Assembly: GCF_014201135.1 (NCBI RefSeq)
Contig: NZ_JACHDR010000001.1
Span: forward strand, 1 to 64,000
DNA length: 64,000 bases
Reading direction: 5' to 3'
Source: Neomicrococcus aestuarii
Lineage (GTDB): Bacteria > Actinomycetota > Actinomycetes > Actinomycetales > Micrococcaceae
How positions within the stretch are numbered: the first letter of the stretch is position 1; each line of letters starts with the position of its first letter. The notes below the pieces were generated by a model, which was not told where the DNA came from, did no database searches, and worked only from the letters and a program-made list of their open reading frames with translations. The position numbers and the translations under genes are program-made. Positions 55,164 to 63,979 of the stretch are shown piece by piece.

Positions 55164-56003
55164 ATGGCTATGCGCCGCAAAGCGATCAAGGGAGCGGGCT
55201 TTGCTCTCGGCTTCGTTTTCCTAGCTGGTGCCATTTCGCCTTCGGTGGCGTTCTCCGAGCCAGTTGGCGTACCCGCGTCCGTTTTTTCGACTGTAACGAC
55301 TCCCACGCCCGAAGCTACCCCCACGGAAAGTCCTTCGGACCCTACTCCAACCGAGTCTCCCGTAGTTTCGGAGACGCCATCGCCCACTCCAGCGGCACCG
55401 ACAGTAGAAGCAACTCGGACTCAGAGACCGACGTATACGGTCCCGACTTCAGCCGTCACGGTCCCTCGCGCAACGCAGCAAGTCAGCGTCCCGCAACAGA
55501 ACACCGTTGAGCTGGATCCGGCGACAGGGTTTCAGCTTGACCCGACGAGCGGTTGGGCTATTCACCCACGAACTGGATTGCTGATCCGTCCCTCTGACGG
55601 TCGGTTAGTGGCTCAAGGATCGCTTGCTGAAAGTGACTTCTACTACGACTTCGATGCTCGTCTGGTAAAAGCTTTTGTTCCACCGTCCGCGGAAGCTTCG
55701 GAATCTCTTGACGCATCGAGCAGTGCGACTGAACTACCTTCCACGGAAGCCTCGGTGAGCACTGAAGCTTCCGAATCCGTTAGCTCTTCGGCCCGGAGCA
55801 CCTCAAGTAAGAAATCGTCTACTTCGGCTGCGACCGTGGGCCCAAGCGCAAGTTCATCGGATATTGGTGCAATGGACAGCACTTCAAATGAAGACGATTT
55901 GAGCGGCACCTATCAGTTTTTCGTGAATGCTGGAGTAGTTGTAATAGTGGTTCTATTGGGAATCTTGTATTACTCGAAAGTTTTCCGGAGGAGCAAGCCT
56001 TGA
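55164..56003 (+). CDS. Membrane-anchored Thr/Ser/Pro-rich surface protein
   Basis: I do not recognise a named family. The 279-residue product has an N-terminal signal (MAMRRKAIKG then a hydrophobic core), a Thr/Pro/Ser-rich stretch (about 45-110), a small central segment with tandem-like phrases DPATGFQLDPTSGWAIHPRT, GLLIRPSDGRLV, then a Ser/Glu-rich region, and a C-terminal TM helix (NAGVVVIVVLLGILYYSK) with a basic tail. No LPXTG-like sorting motif precedes the helix. It opens the AT-richer surface island. Confidence 0.65.
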   Translation: MAMRRKAIKGAGFALGFVFLAGAISPSVAFSEPVGVPASVFSTVTTPTPEATPTESPSDPTPTESPVVSETPSPTPAAPTVEATRTQRPTYTVPTSAVTVPRATQQVSVPQQNTVELDPATGFQLDPTSGWAIHPRTGLLIRPSDGRLVAQGSLAESDFYYDFDARLVKAFVPPSAEASESLDASSSATELPSTEASVSTEASESVSSSARSTSSKKSSTSAATVGPSASSSDIGAMDSTSNEDDLSGTYQFFVNAGVVVIVVLLGILYYSKVFRRSKP

Positions 56004-56079: not shown

Positions 56080-57894
56080 TTGCGGGTGCTGAAAATTAAA
56101 AGAAATTCATCGTATTTATCGGCGTGGGTTGGCGCGCGCTCTTACCCGAGCTTTTTCTCACTGAGGCGCCCCCTCATGGATTCTTGGCGGGCTGAACCCG
56201 TTAGTTTGATAGTTAATCTCCATCGACGCAGAGGAACGGAACGTTCCGCCGCCGTCGTAGAATTTCTGAATCGCTTCTACGGTAAAACAAATCTTTGGAG
56301 CCTTTCTGCACTGACTGCTTTGTTGGCGGAAGATAATGAAAACTTGGAATCTCGTTTGCGGGCTGCGTTGGAAAGTCGCGTAACTTCCCGTGGCGCGAAG
56401 GTTCTCGCGGATATTGCAATCACGGCAGGTCATGTGAACTTGGCAGAACAGTTTGCCGCCTCTATCGAGAGTTCAGATCCTGGTGCCCGGCTGACGCGAG
56501 CCAAACTTATGTGGCACAACGGCGAGCTTTCCAGAGCAATTCATGAGCTAACAGGCGACAATCATCGTGTTCAAAAATTGCGAGCCGTGTATGAAGCTGA
56601 ACGCGAGGTCTTTGGTGGCTGGCGTCCTTCAGTAGAGCCAATCGTGGACTATCGGCCCATTCCGAATGTTGTACTCCATTTGTTGACGAATTCACTCCCG
56701 CATACATCGTCGGGATATACCCAACGATCTCACTCGCTCCTCTTGGAACAGGCTAAAGCTGGGATAGAAGTCCACGCGGTAACGCGGTTGGGCTACCCGC
56801 AAAGCATCGGGATTTCTCATACACATGGAGTGGATGTAGTTGATGGGATCAAATACCACCGAATGTATCTCGACGGTTCTCGTACCAACTTGCGTGATCA
56901 CCATCAGCAAGAGGCTGAAGATCTACTTGAGCTCGTCCAGAGAATACGGCCCTCCGTTATTCATACAACCACCCATTTCATTAACGGAATGGTGGCAAAT
57001 GCTGTTGCGCGTGCCGCTGGAATTCCGTGGATCTATGAAGTGCGCGGTCAACTCTCAGACACTTGGGCTTCAAAACGCGGACCTGAAGCGATCCGTAGTG
57101 AAAGATACCTATCGTTCAAACGTGAAGAAATTGAAATAGCACGTTCAGCTGACGCTGTGATAACAATCGGTCAGTATATGAAGAACTTACTGGTAGCACG
57201 TGAAGTGAGCCCAGAGTCCATTTCAATGTCTCCGAATGCAGTTGGAGAGGATTTCCTATTCCAGCCCAAGTCGCCAGAACAGGTACGCGAAGAACTGGGC
57301 CTGGACAGTGGATCGGTATATGTCGGAACCGTTAGCTCGCTTGTGGAGTATGAAGGCATCGAGACTCTCCTTCGAGCGTACGAGCTTCTTTTGCGTCGGA
57401 GAAATGATATCCGACTAATGATCGTTGGTGATGGCGAAGCTGGGCTCAGACTTCGCCGCACTGCAGCTGACATTGGCCTGAATCCGAACGAAATTTTCGT
57501 CGGTCGTGTTCCACGCGAGGAAGCAGTCAGGTATCACCAAGCGCTTGATATCTTCGTGGTACCTCGAAACGATCTTCTCGTTACCCGTGCCGTGACACCT
57601 CTAAAACCCGTGGAAGCGATGGCAATGGAGCGTCCAGTGATCGCCTCCGACCTTCCAGCTTTGAGGGAGATCGTGGTGGACGGGATCACTGGAGTTCTCG
57701 TACCTCCCGCCGATTCTGAATCGCTGGCAAGGGCAATTGAGGAATTGGTTGACGACGCGGAATTGCGCTGCCGCATGGGAAAAGCCGGTAGGGAAACTGT
57801 TCTCTTGAACCGAACGTGGAAGGGAAGCGTCAGCGCAAGCCTAGACCTTTACCAAAAGTTTGCCCAAGGAAGTGCATCTGTCGTCAATGACTGA
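56080..57894 (+). CDS. Glycosyltransferase family 4 protein
   Basis: Up to 604 residues from the TTG at 56080 (the start is uncertain; ATG 56176 is an alternative). The N-terminal part (to about 175) has helical repeat-like character (ALLAEDNENLESRLRAALES). The GT-B fold follows: THTTSSGYT-like SLPHTSSGYTQRSHSLL, YEVRGQLSDTWASKRG, MSPNAVGEDF, GTVSSLVEYEGIETLLRAYE, and the nucleotide-sugar motif RAVTPLKPVEAMAMERPVIA. It is homologous to the first module of the 1469-residue protein downstream and probably elongates the exported polysaccharide. Its stop overlaps the permease start by 8 bases. Confidence 0.85.
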   Translation: MRVLKIKRNSSYLSAWVGARSYPSFFSLRRPLMDSWRAEPVSLIVNLHRRRGTERSAAVVEFLNRFYGKTNLWSLSALTALLAEDNENLESRLRAALESRVTSRGAKVLADIAITAGHVNLAEQFAASIESSDPGARLTRAKLMWHNGELSRAIHELTGDNHRVQKLRAVYEAEREVFGGWRPSVEPIVDYRPIPNVVLHLLTNSLPHTSSGYTQRSHSLLLEQAKAGIEVHAVTRLGYPQSIGISHTHGVDVVDGIKYHRMYLDGSRTNLRDHHQQEAEDLLELVQRIRPSVIHTTTHFINGMVANAVARAAGIPWIYEVRGQLSDTWASKRGPEAIRSERYLSFKREEIEIARSADAVITIGQYMKNLLVAREVSPESISMSPNAVGEDFLFQPKSPEQVREELGLDSGSVYVGTVSSLVEYEGIETLLRAYELLLRRRNDIRLMIVGDGEAGLRLRRTAADIGLNPNEIFVGRVPREEAVRYHQALDIFVVPRNDLLVTRAVTPLKPVEAMAMERPVIASDLPALREIVVDGITGVLVPPADSESLARAIEELVDDAELRCRMGKAGRETVLLNRTWKGSVSASLDLYQKFAQGSASVVND

Positions 57895-58774
57895 ACCAAT
57901 GGCTCATTCTCCGGGTTCTAATCCAATTCACATAGACGTCTCAGGAATGCGGCGTCTCTACCGACGTCCCAGGTTACTCGACTATCTAGGCCAACTTTGG
58001 CGGGCACGCTCGTTGGCTTTTAGTGAGGCCAGGGCGGGAGTGCTTCTAAAGAATCAAAGAAGTTACTTGGGTGGAGTGTGGCTGATTCTCAATCCGCTGC
58101 TGAATGGACTAGTTTATTTCGCAGTATTCGGGCTCGTTCTTCAAGTCGGTTCTCGAGTCGAAAACTACCTTGGGTTCTTGCTCATCGGTGTGTTCATGTT
58201 TCAGATGACTTCGGGAACGATCAACCAGAGTTCAGACTCCATTTTCTCATTGCGCAAAGTTCTGTCAGGACTCTCTCTACCTGTTGCCTTGGCTCCAACG
58301 ATTACAACGATCAGGCGCTGGCTCGACGGGCTTCCGTCCTACTTAGTGATGATCGTAATGCTCATCATTATTCCTCCGGCAGAGACCCTCACCTGGAAAG
58401 CACTAATGATTATTCCTTTAGTGCTCTTGCAATTCGCTATGTCTTTGGGAATGTCCTACATAGCTGCCTATCTTGTTGCGAGAGTGCACGACTTAAGCAA
58501 TATCTTGACCGTCTTGATTCGCGGCTGGATGTTTGCTTCAGGTGTTATGTTTCCCATTGATGATATTTCAAATATTCATCCGACTTTGGGAGATATGGTT
58601 TATTGGAATCCTCTTCACCATGTGCTCGAAATTGCTCGGGGGATCCTCATCTATGACACATTGCCAGGATTGGATTCGTGGCTAGTGGTCCTAGGGTGGA
58701 CGGTCGCCGCACTCATGCTGGGACTGTTTCTACTTTGGCGACGAGAGGGAAAGTATGATCTCAGCGACCTTTAG
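57887..58774 (+). CDS. ABC-2 type polysaccharide export permease (TagG/Wzm-like)
   Basis: A 295-residue permease with about six TM helices and a cytoplasmic N-terminus; LLKNQRSYLGGVWLILNPLL and YWNPLHHVLEIARGILIYD are typical of TagG/Wzm exporters of teichoic acid and O-antigen. ATG 57887 overlaps the glycosyltransferase stop; a TTG at 57860 is an alternative. The ATPase-like gene overlaps its end by 20 bases. Confidence 0.9.
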   Translation: MTEPMAHSPGSNPIHIDVSGMRRLYRRPRLLDYLGQLWRARSLAFSEARAGVLLKNQRSYLGGVWLILNPLLNGLVYFAVFGLVLQVGSRVENYLGFLLIGVFMFQMTSGTINQSSDSIFSLRKVLSGLSLPVALAPTITTIRRWLDGLPSYLVMIVMLIIIPPAETLTWKALMIIPLVLLQFAMSLGMSYIAAYLVARVHDLSNILTVLIRGWMFASGVMFPIDDISNIHPTLGDMVYWNPLHHVLEIARGILIYDTLPGLDSWLVVLGWTVAALMLGLFLLWRREGKYDLSDL

Positions 58775-59558
58775 CACGCCATCGGAGAGACCGACATTGG
58801 TGCTTCAGAACGTGTCCGTCCAACACCATGACGCCGGTTCCTCAGGACAACGACGTTCGGATCTTCCGAAACTTGAGGATGTCTCGATGTATATGGTCGA
58901 AGGGGAGTCCGTAGGTATCCTCGCGTCGACCACGGACGGATCAACGTTGCTTACTGACTTAGTCAGTGGGAACTTGGCTCCAGACACTGGTGCAGTTTTC
59001 ATTCGTCCGGGCTCCTGCATTCTAGGCGCACCAACTACATCTGAACTCAAGTTGAGCCTTGAGGAAGTGATTCAACGTTTAGCTATGACTCAAGAAGTTA
59101 ATGGTCGGGCTTTGAAGAAGGCGGTGGCTCGCACAGTCCGCCAGATTGGACTCGAGGATGACCATCTCTTCACGAGGGTTTCGGATCTCGAGCCGGCCAT
59201 TGTTGAACTTGCTCGCCTTTCGGCTGCCCTAAATACGTCACCTTCGTTGCTGATTGCAGTCTCAAGTATCGCGAGCGGAAATGTGCTCCTCACTGATCCA
59301 GGCAAAGCCTGGTACGAGCGTTACTTGTCGCGTCGTGGATCGTGTCTTATGTTTGCCTCGAATACCCGCACTTTAGTTCGAGCATGTTCCCGCATTATTT
59401 GGCTGTACGAGGGACGGGTGATTATGGACCGACCGGCAATTGAAGTACATCGAGAATTCGTACGATTCGAAGCTGCTAAAGATGACAGGATGCAGCAAGC
59501 GCAGTTACTCAGACGCTACGCACTGGAACTCGTACAGCCCAAAATCACTACATACTGA
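58755..59558 (+). CDS. ABC ATPase homologue with degraded catalytic motifs (TagH/Wzt position)
   Basis: A full-length, uninterrupted 267-residue protein in the position of the export ATPase. The overall layout is kept (LVLQNVSVQHH..., LPKLEDVSMYMVEGESVGIL; IIWLYEGRVIMDRPAIEVHREF), but catalytic motifs are lost. The P-loop is ILASTTDGST with no Lys (residues 56-64), the LSGG signature region reads VSDLEPAIVELARLSAAL, the Walker B is SLLIAVSSIASGN without the Asp-Glu pair, and the switch His is absent (FASNTRTL). It overlaps the permease gene. ATP hydrolysis is unlikely; a structural or regulatory role is inferred. Confidence 0.75.
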   Translation: MISATFSTPSERPTLVLQNVSVQHHDAGSSGQRRSDLPKLEDVSMYMVEGESVGILASTTDGSTLLTDLVSGNLAPDTGAVFIRPGSCILGAPTTSELKLSLEEVIQRLAMTQEVNGRALKKAVARTVRQIGLEDDHLFTRVSDLEPAIVELARLSAALNTSPSLLIAVSSIASGNVLLTDPGKAWYERYLSRRGSCLMFASNTRTLVRACSRIIWLYEGRVIMDRPAIEVHREFVRFEAAKDDRMQQAQLLRRYALELVQPKITTY

Positions 59559-59569
59559 AAGCTAGCCGG

Positions 59570-62500
59570 ATGCCTCCCGAAAATGATCAACGCCTGTCAC
59601 TCGCTGAGCGGGCGCGTCAATTTGCATTGAAGCAGGAAATCGAACTGTCTGACCTGAACATAGAAAATATGAGTAGGCGGCTCGTAGACCTTCAGTTTAG
59701 ATATGACCAGCTACGGGAAGCTGAGATCAACCAATCTGAGCAGCTACGTCTAGCCCAGGCTCGCGCTTCACAATTCAAGAATCAGTTGGAAGATCTCCGT
59801 ACTAATTATGAGAAGCAATTAGCAAGAGCTACTAAGTTCAAATCGGCCTACGAGTCCATGAAACAATCGCCTGATTTCAAGATTGGGCGATTATTAGCGG
59901 CACCAACCCGTCGTCTCCGAAAGCTTGTCGGGAAATCTACTATCCAACTTTCGGGTAACAATTCGGGCGTGGATCGTACGTCGGACTCGGTTTCCCTAGC
60001 CGTTTCCCCAACGAAGAACTTAGTAACTTCGACTCGGCGTGAAATCGACGAGGCTAAGCGGCGTTATGTGAAGGACGGGGAAGTTGTTGCTCCGCTCGAG
60101 GTGCTTGAATCTTTTGAAGAGCATTTGCACGATAATGAGCGCGTCTTATTGGAGCAAATGCGAGGCGTTAAACGTCTTTTGGAGAATCTGTTCGACATTC
60201 CGCCTAGGCAGTTCTCCGCTGGCTATGTCCCGAAGCGAGGCCGTGTTATTTATTGTGCGCACAGTACGGGTCACTATAACTCGAATGGGTACTCAACAAG
60301 AACTGCGGGTCTGACCTCGGCATTGGGGAAGATATCGGACATTGTTGTGGTGGCCCGCCCAGGCTACCCGTGGGATTCATCCACAAGAGTTCCAGCGGAA
60401 AACAAGGATAGATATACACAGATAATCGGCGACGTTACTCACGTATTTAACAATGGACCGTCTCTTCGTCGCGATCCTGTTGATCTGTATATCCATCGAT
60501 CCGCTGATATTTTGGCCCGTGAAGCAACAATTCAGCGTGCGGAACTAATTCATTCCGCTTCTAATCATTTGACTGCCCTTCCGGCTCTCATTGCGGCGAG
60601 GCGTTTGGGAATTCCCTTTGTCTACGAGGTACGCGGTCTGTGGGAGCTAACCGAAGCTTCAAATAATGAGAAATGGGCCTCTTCTGAAAGATTTCAATCG
60701 GCGGTTCGATTGGAAACTCAGGTAGCTATTGAAGCCGACAGGGTGCTAGCGATCACATCCCAGGTCAAAGAGGAGCTTATTCGACGTGGTGTACGTGAAG
60801 ATCGGATTGAGCTTTTACCGAACGCTGCTGACACTGTCGAATTTGCCCCCGTGCCAAAGGATCGTGGACTACTTCGGTCTCGAGGAATTTCCGAGAATGA
60901 TGTTGTGATCGGATATGCGGGTTCAATAGTGGCGTACGAGGGATTGGATACCTTGGTAGAAGGATTTTCCAAGGCGAGTATTCACTCGGCCCGTCTCAAA
61001 TTGCTAATCGTCGGAGATGGGAAGGATCTTGGCAGGGTTCGTGAAATAGTCAAGGCGAACAACCTTGAAGACCGGGTCATTTTTACAGGCCGAATTCCGT
61101 CACAGCAGGTTCCAAAGCATGTTAACTTGATGGATGTTGTAGTTTGTCCGCGTCGCTCTAATACGGTGACCGAAATGGTTTCGCCGATAAAGCCCCTAGA
61201 GGCTTTTGCAGCAGGCAAGGCCGTAATCGTTTCGAACGTCGGACCGCTGGTGGAGCTCGTAGGTCAAGACCAAGACCGGGGACTGATTTTTGAGGCCGGT
61301 GAACCAGAAGATCTATCTCGAAAGATTCGGACCCTAATAGAAGATTCAGAGACTAGAACCGAGCTGGGTCGGAAAGCGAGGAGCTGGACTCGCCAAACGC
61401 GTGATTGGTCAGAAATGGCGCGAATTGTGAGGCACGCTTACGCCGCTGTCTTTGAAGAGAGCAAGCGAGCATCAACGAGTCTTATAAATGAGTCTGAACC
61501 GCGATCCATATCAGACCTACGTTTGGCACTTATATCGGACGAGTTCACCTATCATTCTGTGAAATCTGAGTGTGAAGTAATTCAGATTCACCCAGATTCA
61601 TGGAAAGAAGTGCTTTCCCCAGATTCGATTGATGCCCTTCTGATTGAATCGGCGTGGGAAGGGAACAACGGTAGCTGGCATCGCAAGGTCGGCTATTATG
61701 ACGACGATTCGTTCTCAACAATCGTTGAGCTGACGGATTGGTGCCGGAAATTCGGTATTCCGACGCTCTTCTGGAATAAGGAAGACCCAGTACATTTTGA
61801 GCGATTCCGAAAAACTGCTTCGCTCGTTGATCATGTGTTCACAACGGACTCCAATATGATTCCGAAGTACTTTAGCTCTCGAGGATCGGAGAACAAGACT
61901 TACTCTGCTTTACCGTTCTGGGCACAGCCGAGTATCCATAATCCATTCCCCCCGCGGGGGAGTCGGAAAGATACCGTTGCCTACGGAGGCTCCTTCTATG
62001 GCGAACGCTATCCGGAGAGGTCTCATAGCCTCCAGATTCTGCTTAATTCTGTTGCTGAACACGGTCTTACAATCTATGACCGTCAAGCCAATCATCCTGA
62101 ATCTCCATATCGGTATCCGCAAAAACTGGTTCGATTTGTTCAAGGGGGTCTCAAGTATTCAGAAATGCTGGACGCCTATAAACAACATCCCCTACACCTA
62201 AATGTGAACTCGGTTGTAAATTCTCCGACAATGTTCTCGCGCAGGGTCGTGGAGTTAGCGGCCTGTGGAACGCCGATCATTTCGGGGCCGGGCGCTGGGG
62301 TTGATTATCTTTTTGGAGACCTAGTACCCACCACCGAGTCCGGCGACCTTGTCGGTAAGATTAGTAATCTTTGGATGAATAACGAGCGAGATCGGATTCT
62401 GGACGGGTGGAATCTTCACCGTCACGTTTATAGAGCCCACCTGGCCCAACACAGGCTCGCGTACATGTTGCGCACGGCTGGAATCAAGCTTCAGATGGAG

Positions 62501-63979
62501 GAATTGCCAAGGTACCGGCTGCGTCTTGACGCTCTTACTGCGGAGTCCACAGCATCAACACTCCGACAGTCGCTCCTTCCGAATGAAGTTGTTGTCGGGA
62601 AAGACCAAGTTCTAGACAAGGCCTTGGTTGAGAGATTGAATTCCGAAAGTGTCTCTGTAGATTTCGAGAACAACGCGAATGATGATGAACTGCTCGATGT
62701 CTATTTGGGAAACTTCTTAGACGACTCTGAAGCGGCTGAGGATCTTGTGCGGACATCATTTTACTGGCCTGGACGAATTCAAATTACCTCGCCTGCCAAG
62801 TTCCGCAATCGGCATAGCCTCTGGGAGTTCGACAAGTTTGATAAATCCTCGCCGGCACTCAACAGGGGAGTAGGAAGCCCTGCAAGCGCCGTAACCGAGG
62901 GTGATCAGACTGCGGTCCTCGCATTAGTTCGACCGCGCGAAGAATTGTCGGCGGAACCTCAAGTGTCGCCTAAAGTTGAGGTTTCCTTCGAGCCTAAACG
63001 AATTGTATTAGCGGGCCATGATCTCAAGTTCGCCTCAACCATTGTTCAAGGTCTTCGGAATGCAGGACATGACGTAAGAATCGATCAATGGACGGGTCAT
63101 GCGACTCATGACGAACTGCTGAGTGAAGAACTAAGCCTTTGGTCGAATGTGGTTTTCTGTGAGTGGGCGTTAGGCAATCTTGAATGGTATTCCAGTAGGC
63201 GACGACCCGGTCAAAAACTCATAACAAGGTTCCACTCTCAAGAGTTGTTCTGGCCTTACATGGAGCGAATTCACCCAGAAACTGTTGACAAGTTTGTATT
63301 TGTTGGCGAATTTGTTAGGCAACGCGCTATGCGACAGTTTGGGATTCCATATGAACGAACCGTAGTCATCCCGAATGCCCTAGGGGTTGAACCAGGGCTA
63401 CGCAAAGTGGATTCTGACAATAGATTCCGTATTGGATTTGTTGGGTCGGTTCCTCGTCAAAAGCATCTCGATCGAGCCCTAGATATTCTTGAAATGGTAC
63501 GCAAGCAAGATACGCGATTCGAGCTACATGTTAAGGGGAGGAGACCTGAGGAATACTCGTGGATGCTTGATCGGCCCGATGAACTTGCGTTCTATCAAGA
63601 ACAGTATGCGCGGATTGAGCAGAATCCGTTACTGACAGGTTCAGTACATTTTGATCCGCATGGAGACGATATGTCTGAGTGGTACAGCCAAATTGGTGTT
63701 GTCCTTTCTCTGAGTGATTTCGAATCGTTTCATATGACTCTCGCGGATGGTGCCGCGAGCGGAGCCGTACCGCTCTCATTGTCTTGGCCAGGAGCCGAAC
63801 TGATCTATCCAGTCACGTGGATTCACGACGAAAAGAGGGACATTGCCAACCATCTTTTGGAAGTGACGGCCGACGAGCTCAATTTTGAGGAGACCGCTAG
63901 AGGAGCTCAAATGTTCGCTCTCGGAAATTTTGCGACCAAATCAATCGTGGACACATATCTAGCCCTTATAGCTCACTAA
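59570..63979 (+). CDS. Multi-domain glycosyltransferase (coiled coil plus three GT-like modules)
   Basis: The 1469-residue product has an N-terminal coiled coil (about 10-100). Module 1 (about 223-630) is GT4: YEVRGLWELTEAS, YAGSIVAYEGLDTLVEGF and EMVSPIKPLEAFAAGKAVIV. Module 2 (about 650-985) resembles CgeB/YkvP-type glycosyltransferases: GIPTLFWNKEDPVHFERF, VAYGGSFYGERYPERS, MFSRRVVELAACGTPIISG. Module 3 (about 1140-1469) is GT4-like: IPNALGVEPGLRKV, IGFVGSVPRQKHLDRALDIL, and SLSDFESFHMTLADGAASG. It follows the export ATPase homologue by 11 bases and probably assembles a repeating glycan. The TAA stop lies near the window end. Confidence 0.85.
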   Translation: MPPENDQRLSLAERARQFALKQEIELSDLNIENMSRRLVDLQFRYDQLREAEINQSEQLRLAQARASQFKNQLEDLRTNYEKQLARATKFKSAYESMKQSPDFKIGRLLAAPTRRLRKLVGKSTIQLSGNNSGVDRTSDSVSLAVSPTKNLVTSTRREIDEAKRRYVKDGEVVAPLEVLESFEEHLHDNERVLLEQMRGVKRLLENLFDIPPRQFSAGYVPKRGRVIYCAHSTGHYNSNGYSTRTAGLTSALGKISDIVVVARPGYPWDSSTRVPAENKDRYTQIIGDVTHVFNNGPSLRRDPVDLYIHRSADILAREATIQRAELIHSASNHLTALPALIAARRLGIPFVYEVRGLWELTEASNNEKWASSERFQSAVRLETQVAIEADRVLAITSQVKEELIRRGVREDRIELLPNAADTVEFAPVPKDRGLLRSRGISENDVVIGYAGSIVAYEGLDTLVEGFSKASIHSARLKLLIVGDGKDLGRVREIVKANNLEDRVIFTGRIPSQQVPKHVNLMDVVVCPRRSNTVTEMVSPIKPLEAFAAGKAVIVSNVGPLVELVGQDQDRGLIFEAGEPEDLSRKIRTLIEDSETRTELGRKARSWTRQTRDWSEMARIVRHAYAAVFEESKRASTSLINESEPRSISDLRLALISDEFTYHSVKSECEVIQIHPDSWKEVLSPDSIDALLIESAWEGNNGSWHRKVGYYDDDSFSTIVELTDWCRKFGIPTLFWNKEDPVHFERFRKTASLVDHVFTTDSNMIPKYFSSRGSENKTYSALPFWAQPSIHNPFPPRGSRKDTVAYGGSFYGERYPERSHSLQILLNSVAEHGLTIYDRQANHPESPYRYPQKLVRFVQGGLKYSEMLDAYKQHPLHLNVNSVVNSPTMFSRRVVELAACGTPIISGPGAGVDYLFGDLVPTTESGDLVGKISNLWMNNERDRILDGWNLHRHVYRAHLAQHRLAYMLRTAGIKLQMEELPRYRLRLDALTAESTASTLRQSLLPNEVVVGKDQVLDKALVERLNSESVSVDFENNANDDELLDVYLGNFLDDSEAAEDLVRTSFYWPGRIQITSPAKFRNRHSLWEFDKFDKSSPALNRGVGSPASAVTEGDQTAVLALVRPREELSAEPQVSPKVEVSFEPKRIVLAGHDLKFASTIVQGLRNAGHDVRIDQWTGHATHDELLSEELSLWSNVVFCEWALGNLEWYSSRRRPGQKLITRFHSQELFWPYMERIHPETVDKFVFVGEFVRQRAMRQFGIPYERTVVIPNALGVEPGLRKVDSDNRFRIGFVGSVPRQKHLDRALDILEMVRKQDTRFELHVKGRRPEEYSWMLDRPDELAFYQEQYARIEQNPLLTGSVHFDPHGDDMSEWYSQIGVVLSLSDFESFHMTLADGAASGAVPLSLSWPGAELIYPVTWIHDEKRDIANHLLEVTADELNFEETARGAQMFALGNFATKSIVDTYLALIAH

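Follow-up and report, generated by a model that had tools for sequence, protein, structure and literature searches.

A conserved, probable pseudo-ATPase of TagH/Wzt type in a wall-glycopolymer gene cassette of Micrococcaceae

TagH/TarH and Wzt are the nucleotide-binding domains (NBDs) of ABC exporters of type V, which carry wall teichoic acid and O-antigen. In heterodimeric ABC transporters with a degenerate NBD, one of the two composite ATP sites stays complete. For TarH, an inter-subunit contact between the Asn of Walker A and the Asp of the D-loop has been described (PMC11971408). Outside the ABC transporters, the dynein light intermediate chain, with its Ras-like fold, is an example of a pseudo-nucleotidase scaffold (PMC4359372). 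Our search of the open-access literature found no report of a TagH/Wzt-type pseudo-ATPase with all of its motifs lost. Here we describe one encoded in a 64,000-nucleotide stretch of Neomicrococcus aestuarii DNA (contig NZ_JACHDR010000001.1, positions 1 to 64,000), referred to below as the window. The genes of its cassette, and the gene that precedes them, are:

55164..56003, + strand: protein of 279 aa whose N-terminal segment is signal-like and whose C-terminal segment is hydrophobic; a homologue (p233) occupies the same place in intact clusters
56080..57894, + strand: GT4 glycosyltransferase (GT), 604 aa; orthologues flank an intact TagGH pair in relatives
57887..58774, + strand: ABC-2 (Wzm/TagG-type) permease, 295 aa, with a 20-nt overlap with the pseudo-NBD (PF01061 E 3.7e-14, alignments, AlphaFold2 helices)
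58755..59558, + strand: pseudo-NBD of TagH/Wzt fold, 267 aa, without catalytic motifs (profile, alignment, AlphaFold2, structural alignment)
59570..63979, + strand: giant glycosyltransferase with several domains, 1469 aa; in relatives, its orthologues are found in clusters that hold intact TagGH

An ABC fold without its catalytic motifs

The pseudo-NBD is encoded beside a TagG/Wzm-type permease, as members of the TagH/Wzt family are. Its first 20 nt are shared with the 3' end of the permease ORF and its 267-aa frame is unbroken from end to end, in agreement with an earlier note on this DNA, which had described an overlapping exporter gene pair with an open ATPase frame. The match to Pfam ABC_tran is sub-threshold (17.2 bits against a cut-off of 25 bits), and domain scans alone would therefore miss the protein. 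A profile built from the orthologues, on the other hand, matches Wzt of Aquifex (6amx, E 5e-28) and TarH (6jbh, E 2e-23), in both cases spanning the NBD with the motif regions free of gaps. The AlphaFold2 model has a mean pLDDT of 86 and a pTM of 0.83, and the solved structures closest to it are TagH and WzmWzt (Z about 22-23, rmsd 2.6-4.2 Å, 222-234 residues). The protein has the fold of an ABC NBD, nearest to TagH/Wzt, which agrees with the fold-level pattern that the earlier note had read from the sequence.

The lost positions were defined by alignment with 43 intact homologues, across which the Walker A Lys and Asn, the P-loop glycines, the Walker B Asp and Glu, the D-loop Asp and the switch His are invariant. 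In the window copy, Walker A has changed from G-x-N-G-S-G-K-S-T to A-S-T-T-D-G-S-T-L (Lys to S63, Asn to Thr, the middle Gly to Thr and Ser to Thr), and an intact Walker A (GxxGxGKS/T) is absent. The S-S-G of the signature has become E146-P147-A148, the D-loop Asp is Asn and the A-loop Tyr is His. The earlier note had listed the Walker A lysine, the signature, the Walker B pair and the switch histidine as lost; the alignment confirms these losses and adds the D-loop Asp and the A-loop Tyr. The positions concerned, all assigned from the alignment, are:

58914..58970, + strand: remnant P-loop, residues 54-72, GILASTTDGSTLLTDLVSG, with S63 in place of Lys and a new D61 that is fixed in 8/8 orthologues
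59187..59204, + strand: signature position (YSSGM in intact relatives), here LEPAIV, residues 145-150
59247..59264, + strand: Walker B position (IIVIDE in the intact paralogue), here residues 165-170, with V169 and S170 for Asp and Glu
59358..59360, + strand: position of the switch histidine, here S202

The same pattern extends to the orthologues described below. All eight have lost the Walker A Lys together with the Asn and the middle Gly of the P-loop, the first Ser and the Gly in the signature, the D-loop Asp and the A-loop Tyr, and in every copy a P-loop Ser is replaced by Asp (D61). The structural glycines of the P-loop are partly retained, the last in 8/8 and the first in 7/8, with Ala in the window copy. 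The loss hits the catalytic and phosphate-contacting residues, not the P-loop itself. The Walker B Asp-Glu pair is retained in two copies (G018 and G021) and the switch His in G021 only. This places the loss of the ATP-binding residues and the signature first, and that of the other catalytic residues later, in separate steps. The idea that the losses are confined to the catalytic motifs was not supported (motif columns kept 24% and the remaining conserved columns 35%, a non-significant difference, Mann-Whitney p 0.35): conserved non-motif positions are also much altered, indicating that drift affected the whole protein and not the active site alone. The stretch matching the TarH/Wzt gating helix has 10-13 residues in the pseudo-NBDs against 16-46 in the 43 intact homologues, some of which are also short; in the window copy it comprises 13 aa and the AlphaFold2 model has no such helix.

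Both partners of the TarH-type dimer contact, the Asn and the Asp, are missing in 8/8 pseudo-NBDs. With the Lys, the Asn and the signature lost, an Asp now in the phosphate loop and neither residue of the Asn-Asp contact left, an ATP-closed dimer of the pseudo-NBD, with itself or with an intact TagH, would be very unlikely, and this favours a nucleotide-independent structural or regulatory role with the permease and the GTs. We regard as highly improbable that the protein is still an ATPase, working with unusual motifs: the last P-loop glycine persists in 8/8 and the Walker B Asp-Glu in G018 and G021, but the Lys, the signature Ser and Gly and the P-loop Asn are lost in every copy, and the phosphate loop has acquired a fixed acidic residue.

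Orthologues, origin and selection

Orthologues were sought in 395 genomes from the family and in 347 from the order, and turned up in 8 genomes from three Micrococcaceae genera. These are both genomes of the window's genus (G000, G001), one of g18 (G018, Micrococcaceae bacterium RIT 802) and five of g21 (G048, Zhihengliuella salsuginis; G129, a record named Kocuria polaris MS50-16; G021, G109 and G146). The G129 record groups with Zhihengliuella, and its name is probably wrong. A profile scan of named genomes returned only Z. salsuginis, RIT 802 and MS50-16, and otherwise weak, unrelated matches; among the best order-level matches outside the cassette no degenerate Walker A was found, the motif being intact in all. 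At 445-480 bits, the cassette permeases stand clear of the next ones, which reach at most 315 bits, and the orthologue set therefore has a sharp boundary. In G021, the permease and the pseudo-NBD were taken from open frames that the automatic ORF picker had overlooked.

In the NBD tree the pseudo-NBDs form one clade (support 100/100), and the cassette permeases do the same in theirs (100/100). Two matching subclades recur in both trees, which disagree on how G109 and G146 branch within g21, on long branches. The pseudo-NBD has a single origin, which predates the split between the two subclades of the three genera.

All eight orthologues are full-length. Pairwise comparison of the pseudo-NBDs gives pS of 0.68-0.83 against pN of 0.25-0.57; as pairwise dN/dS is saturated for most pairs (pS 0.7-0.8), a comparison of codon models was used. 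Under the MG model, omega is 0.045-0.074 for the pseudo-NBD and 0.026-0.043 for the permease and the intact NBD, and fixing omega at 1 costs 311 log units for the pseudo-NBD; with synonymous sites saturated the omega figure is rough, the constraint itself being clear. The pseudo-NBD evolves faster than the neighbouring genes and under strong purifying selection. Its terminal branches, whose length is for the most part two to four times that of the permease's, are what ordinary pseudogenisation under way would have in its favour, a reading to which we give almost no credence, as it is contradicted by the selection test and faces eight full-length copies in three genera, with omega of 0.05-0.07 and a conserved operon slot. 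Taken together, the full length of 8/8 copies, the conservation of the motif-less form, purifying selection and the fixed operon slot establish that the pseudo-NBD is not a decaying gene. The earlier note had argued as much from the open frame; the degenerate form in 8/8 orthologues, the omega of about 0.05-0.07 and the difference of 311 log units from omega = 1 now bear it out.

The exporter slot, its coupling and the intact pair

Gene order is the same in 8/8 genomes: GT4 (about 580-610 aa), permease, pseudo-NBD and giant GT (1337-1523 aa). An LCP-family gene lies upstream of the cassette in g21 (PF03816 in the two tested). The giant GT of G109 (L074 3938-7951) is shorter, at 1337 aa, and partly divergent, with pseudo-NBD and permease still present. 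In the window's genome, transposase-like ORFs are found just 3' of the giant GT (L036 4456-8931, about 64456-68931 in the genome, past the window).

Two genomes of other genera (G026 and G201) carry a cluster of a secreted protein, a GT, a GT4, a permease, an intact NBD, a GT, a nucleotide-sugar dehydrogenase-like gene and a giant GT; this type of cluster also has an LCP gene, seen in G026. The GT4 and the giant GT of the cassette are about 41-49% identical to their counterparts there. Since the same GTs flank an intact permease/ATPase pair in these relatives, the cassette appears to be a derived copy, in which the pseudo-TagGH stands where relatives have a working pair, its motor subunit dead. 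The clusters of G026 and G201 (loci L127 and L128) represent a conserved wall-glycopolymer cluster of Micrococcaceae, in which TagGH is joined by an LCP ligase, a secreted TM protein, a nucleotide-sugar dehydrogenase-like gene and several GTs in addition to a giant multi-domain one. In g23/g24 (G132, G217), the GT4/giant-GT cluster has no TagGH inside and the nearest permease of the family is about 40-45 kb off; a dead copy is therefore not a general requirement of these GTs. The simplest history would be a duplication with reciprocal loss afterwards.

The cassette permease has an ABC2_membrane domain and a TM2-TM3 coupling helix (model helices 94-116, 118-128 and 135-161, pLDDT 71). The region concerned is:

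58229..58318, + strand: permease coupling-helix region, residues 115-144; the family residues G115, F129, F131, R133 and E144 are lost in 8/8

The coupling-helix F-P-R and Glu of the intact Micrococcaceae family (F129, F131, R133, E144) occur in 0/8 cassette permeases. Of 69 positions with a conservation of 90% or more across 28 intact relatives, the cassette permease retains 65%, and it is under purifying selection. Ten positions around the coupling helix retain 25%, against 72% elsewhere, the lowest value of all windows of that size (random-subset p 0.0004, an optimistic figure, because the region was picked after viewing the lost residues). The matching groove of the NBD (canonical G139-L144 and L156-M161) is mostly altered in the pseudo-NBDs too. 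Both sides of the motor-permease coupling have changed, which fits a pair that no longer runs an ATP cycle and argues against simple use of a distant TagH. The retention of many permease residues although the motor is dead would suit a pair that serves as an ATP-independent channel or scramblase for a lipid-linked polymer. We think this improbable: no precedent of a TagG-type permease working without ATP was found in the open-access literature, and energy-free export would need a pull by ligation.

The genome of the window does encode another TagH-like ATPase, for which the earlier note had advised a search: it lies at C1:914443-915366, shares about 22% identity with the pseudo-NBD and has all motifs intact. 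A single intact TagH is encoded in every one of the eight genomes (best matches E 2e-67 or better, the next at most 70 bits). Its own permease adjoins it in the six genomes whose surroundings were read (G000, G001, G048, G021, G146 and G109), and in G018 and G129 a permease is adjacent as judged by coordinates. This intact TagGH pair probably exports the polymer.

One of the two readings offered by the earlier note, that the permease is driven by an ATPase encoded elsewhere, is right in that an intact TagH exists, and is weakened by the permease that this TagH has of its own and by the loss of the coupling-helix F-P-R and Glu in 8/8. A cassette permease acting as a working exporter powered by the distant TagH, with the pseudo-NBD as an accessory, would account for the 65% of conserved positions retained under purifying selection, and the TagGH of the g23/g24 relatives is likewise 40-56 kb from the GT cluster; F129, F131, R133 and E144, however, are lost in 8/8 just where the NBD drives the permease, and the intact TagH has an adjacent permease, which makes this reading unlikely in our view. 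Rather doubtful too, if somewhat less so, is a regulatory heteromer, in which the pseudo-NBD, the permease or both would mix with intact TagG/TagH and the dead half would tune or limit export. An intact TagGH is at hand in 8/8 genomes, and degenerate NBDs are known from heterodimeric ABC transporters such as ABCG5/G8, but in the present case one subunit has lost both Walker A and the signature, which would leave a mixed dimer without a complete site, and the Asn-Asp dimer contact is gone on the pseudo side.

Proposed role and comparison with known systems

The other reading of the earlier note, in which the subunit has taken on a new role and binds, for instance, the permease or a glycosyltransferase, is to be preferred of the two, the form being conserved, selected and fixed in one operon slot. 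Beyond that note lie the conservation in eight genomes, the single origin, the order of the losses and the putative replacement of an intact TagGH pair within an existing glycopolymer cluster.

The explanation we favour, with belief and doubt about evenly balanced, is that the protein is a conserved pseudo-ATPase that needs no nucleotide and serves its permease and the GTs as a structural or regulatory partner, while the intact pair exports. We infer that it does not bind ATP, that it binds the permease and docks GTs, and that export is left to the intact pair. The TagH/Wzt paralogue would keep its ABC fold with neither normal ATP binding nor an ATP-sandwich dimer. Its single origin would have been in a copy of the wall-glycopolymer cluster that in relatives comprises an LCP ligase, a secreted protein, a GT4, a permease, an intact NBD and a giant GT. 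The intact TagGH pair, now at a second locus, would most likely be the polymer exporter, and the copy in the GT operon would have become a nucleotide-independent membrane module, in which the permease may hold the pseudo-NBD and the pseudo-NBD may dock or regulate the GT4 and the giant GT. The more specific proposal, that a complete exporter of permease and NBD has been turned into a non-transporting, nucleotide-independent membrane platform that organises wall-polymer GTs, with export by the intact paralogous pair, we put forward more tentatively; it would be a 'pseudo-ABC transporter' in which neither ATP site works and which selection maintains in three genera. A dead motor whose shape and whose place beside polymer-building enzymes have been kept by selection in three genera suggests a part in docking or control. 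The pair, held by selection in the slot of a working exporter, offers a natural separation of the ATP motor from other functions of TagGH, and makes it testable whether TagGH exporters double as assembly platforms for polymer-making enzymes.

The pair resembles the TagH/TarH and Wzt systems in fold, size and TagG/Wzm-type partner permease, and like them it lies among LCP and GT genes in a glycopolymer cluster. It differs from them in that the pseudo-NBDs are without the Walker A Lys, the signature, the D-loop Asp and the A-loop Tyr (8/8), in the altered coupling helix of the permease and perhaps in the short gating-helix segment. With heterodimeric transporters of the ABCG5/G8 type it shares an NBD that selection keeps although its catalytic motifs are lost; unlike these, it has lost Walker A and the signature on one subunit (8/8) and has no intact NBD in the operon, and hence no complete site. 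Known degenerate NBDs are one half of asymmetric ABC transporters with one good ATP site, whereas here none can remain in the pair. As in pseudo-nucleotidase scaffolds such as the dynein light intermediate chain, a nucleotide-binding fold is kept and a structural role is proposed; the two belong to different protein families, and for the pseudo-NBD the role is one that we infer from its sequence and setting.
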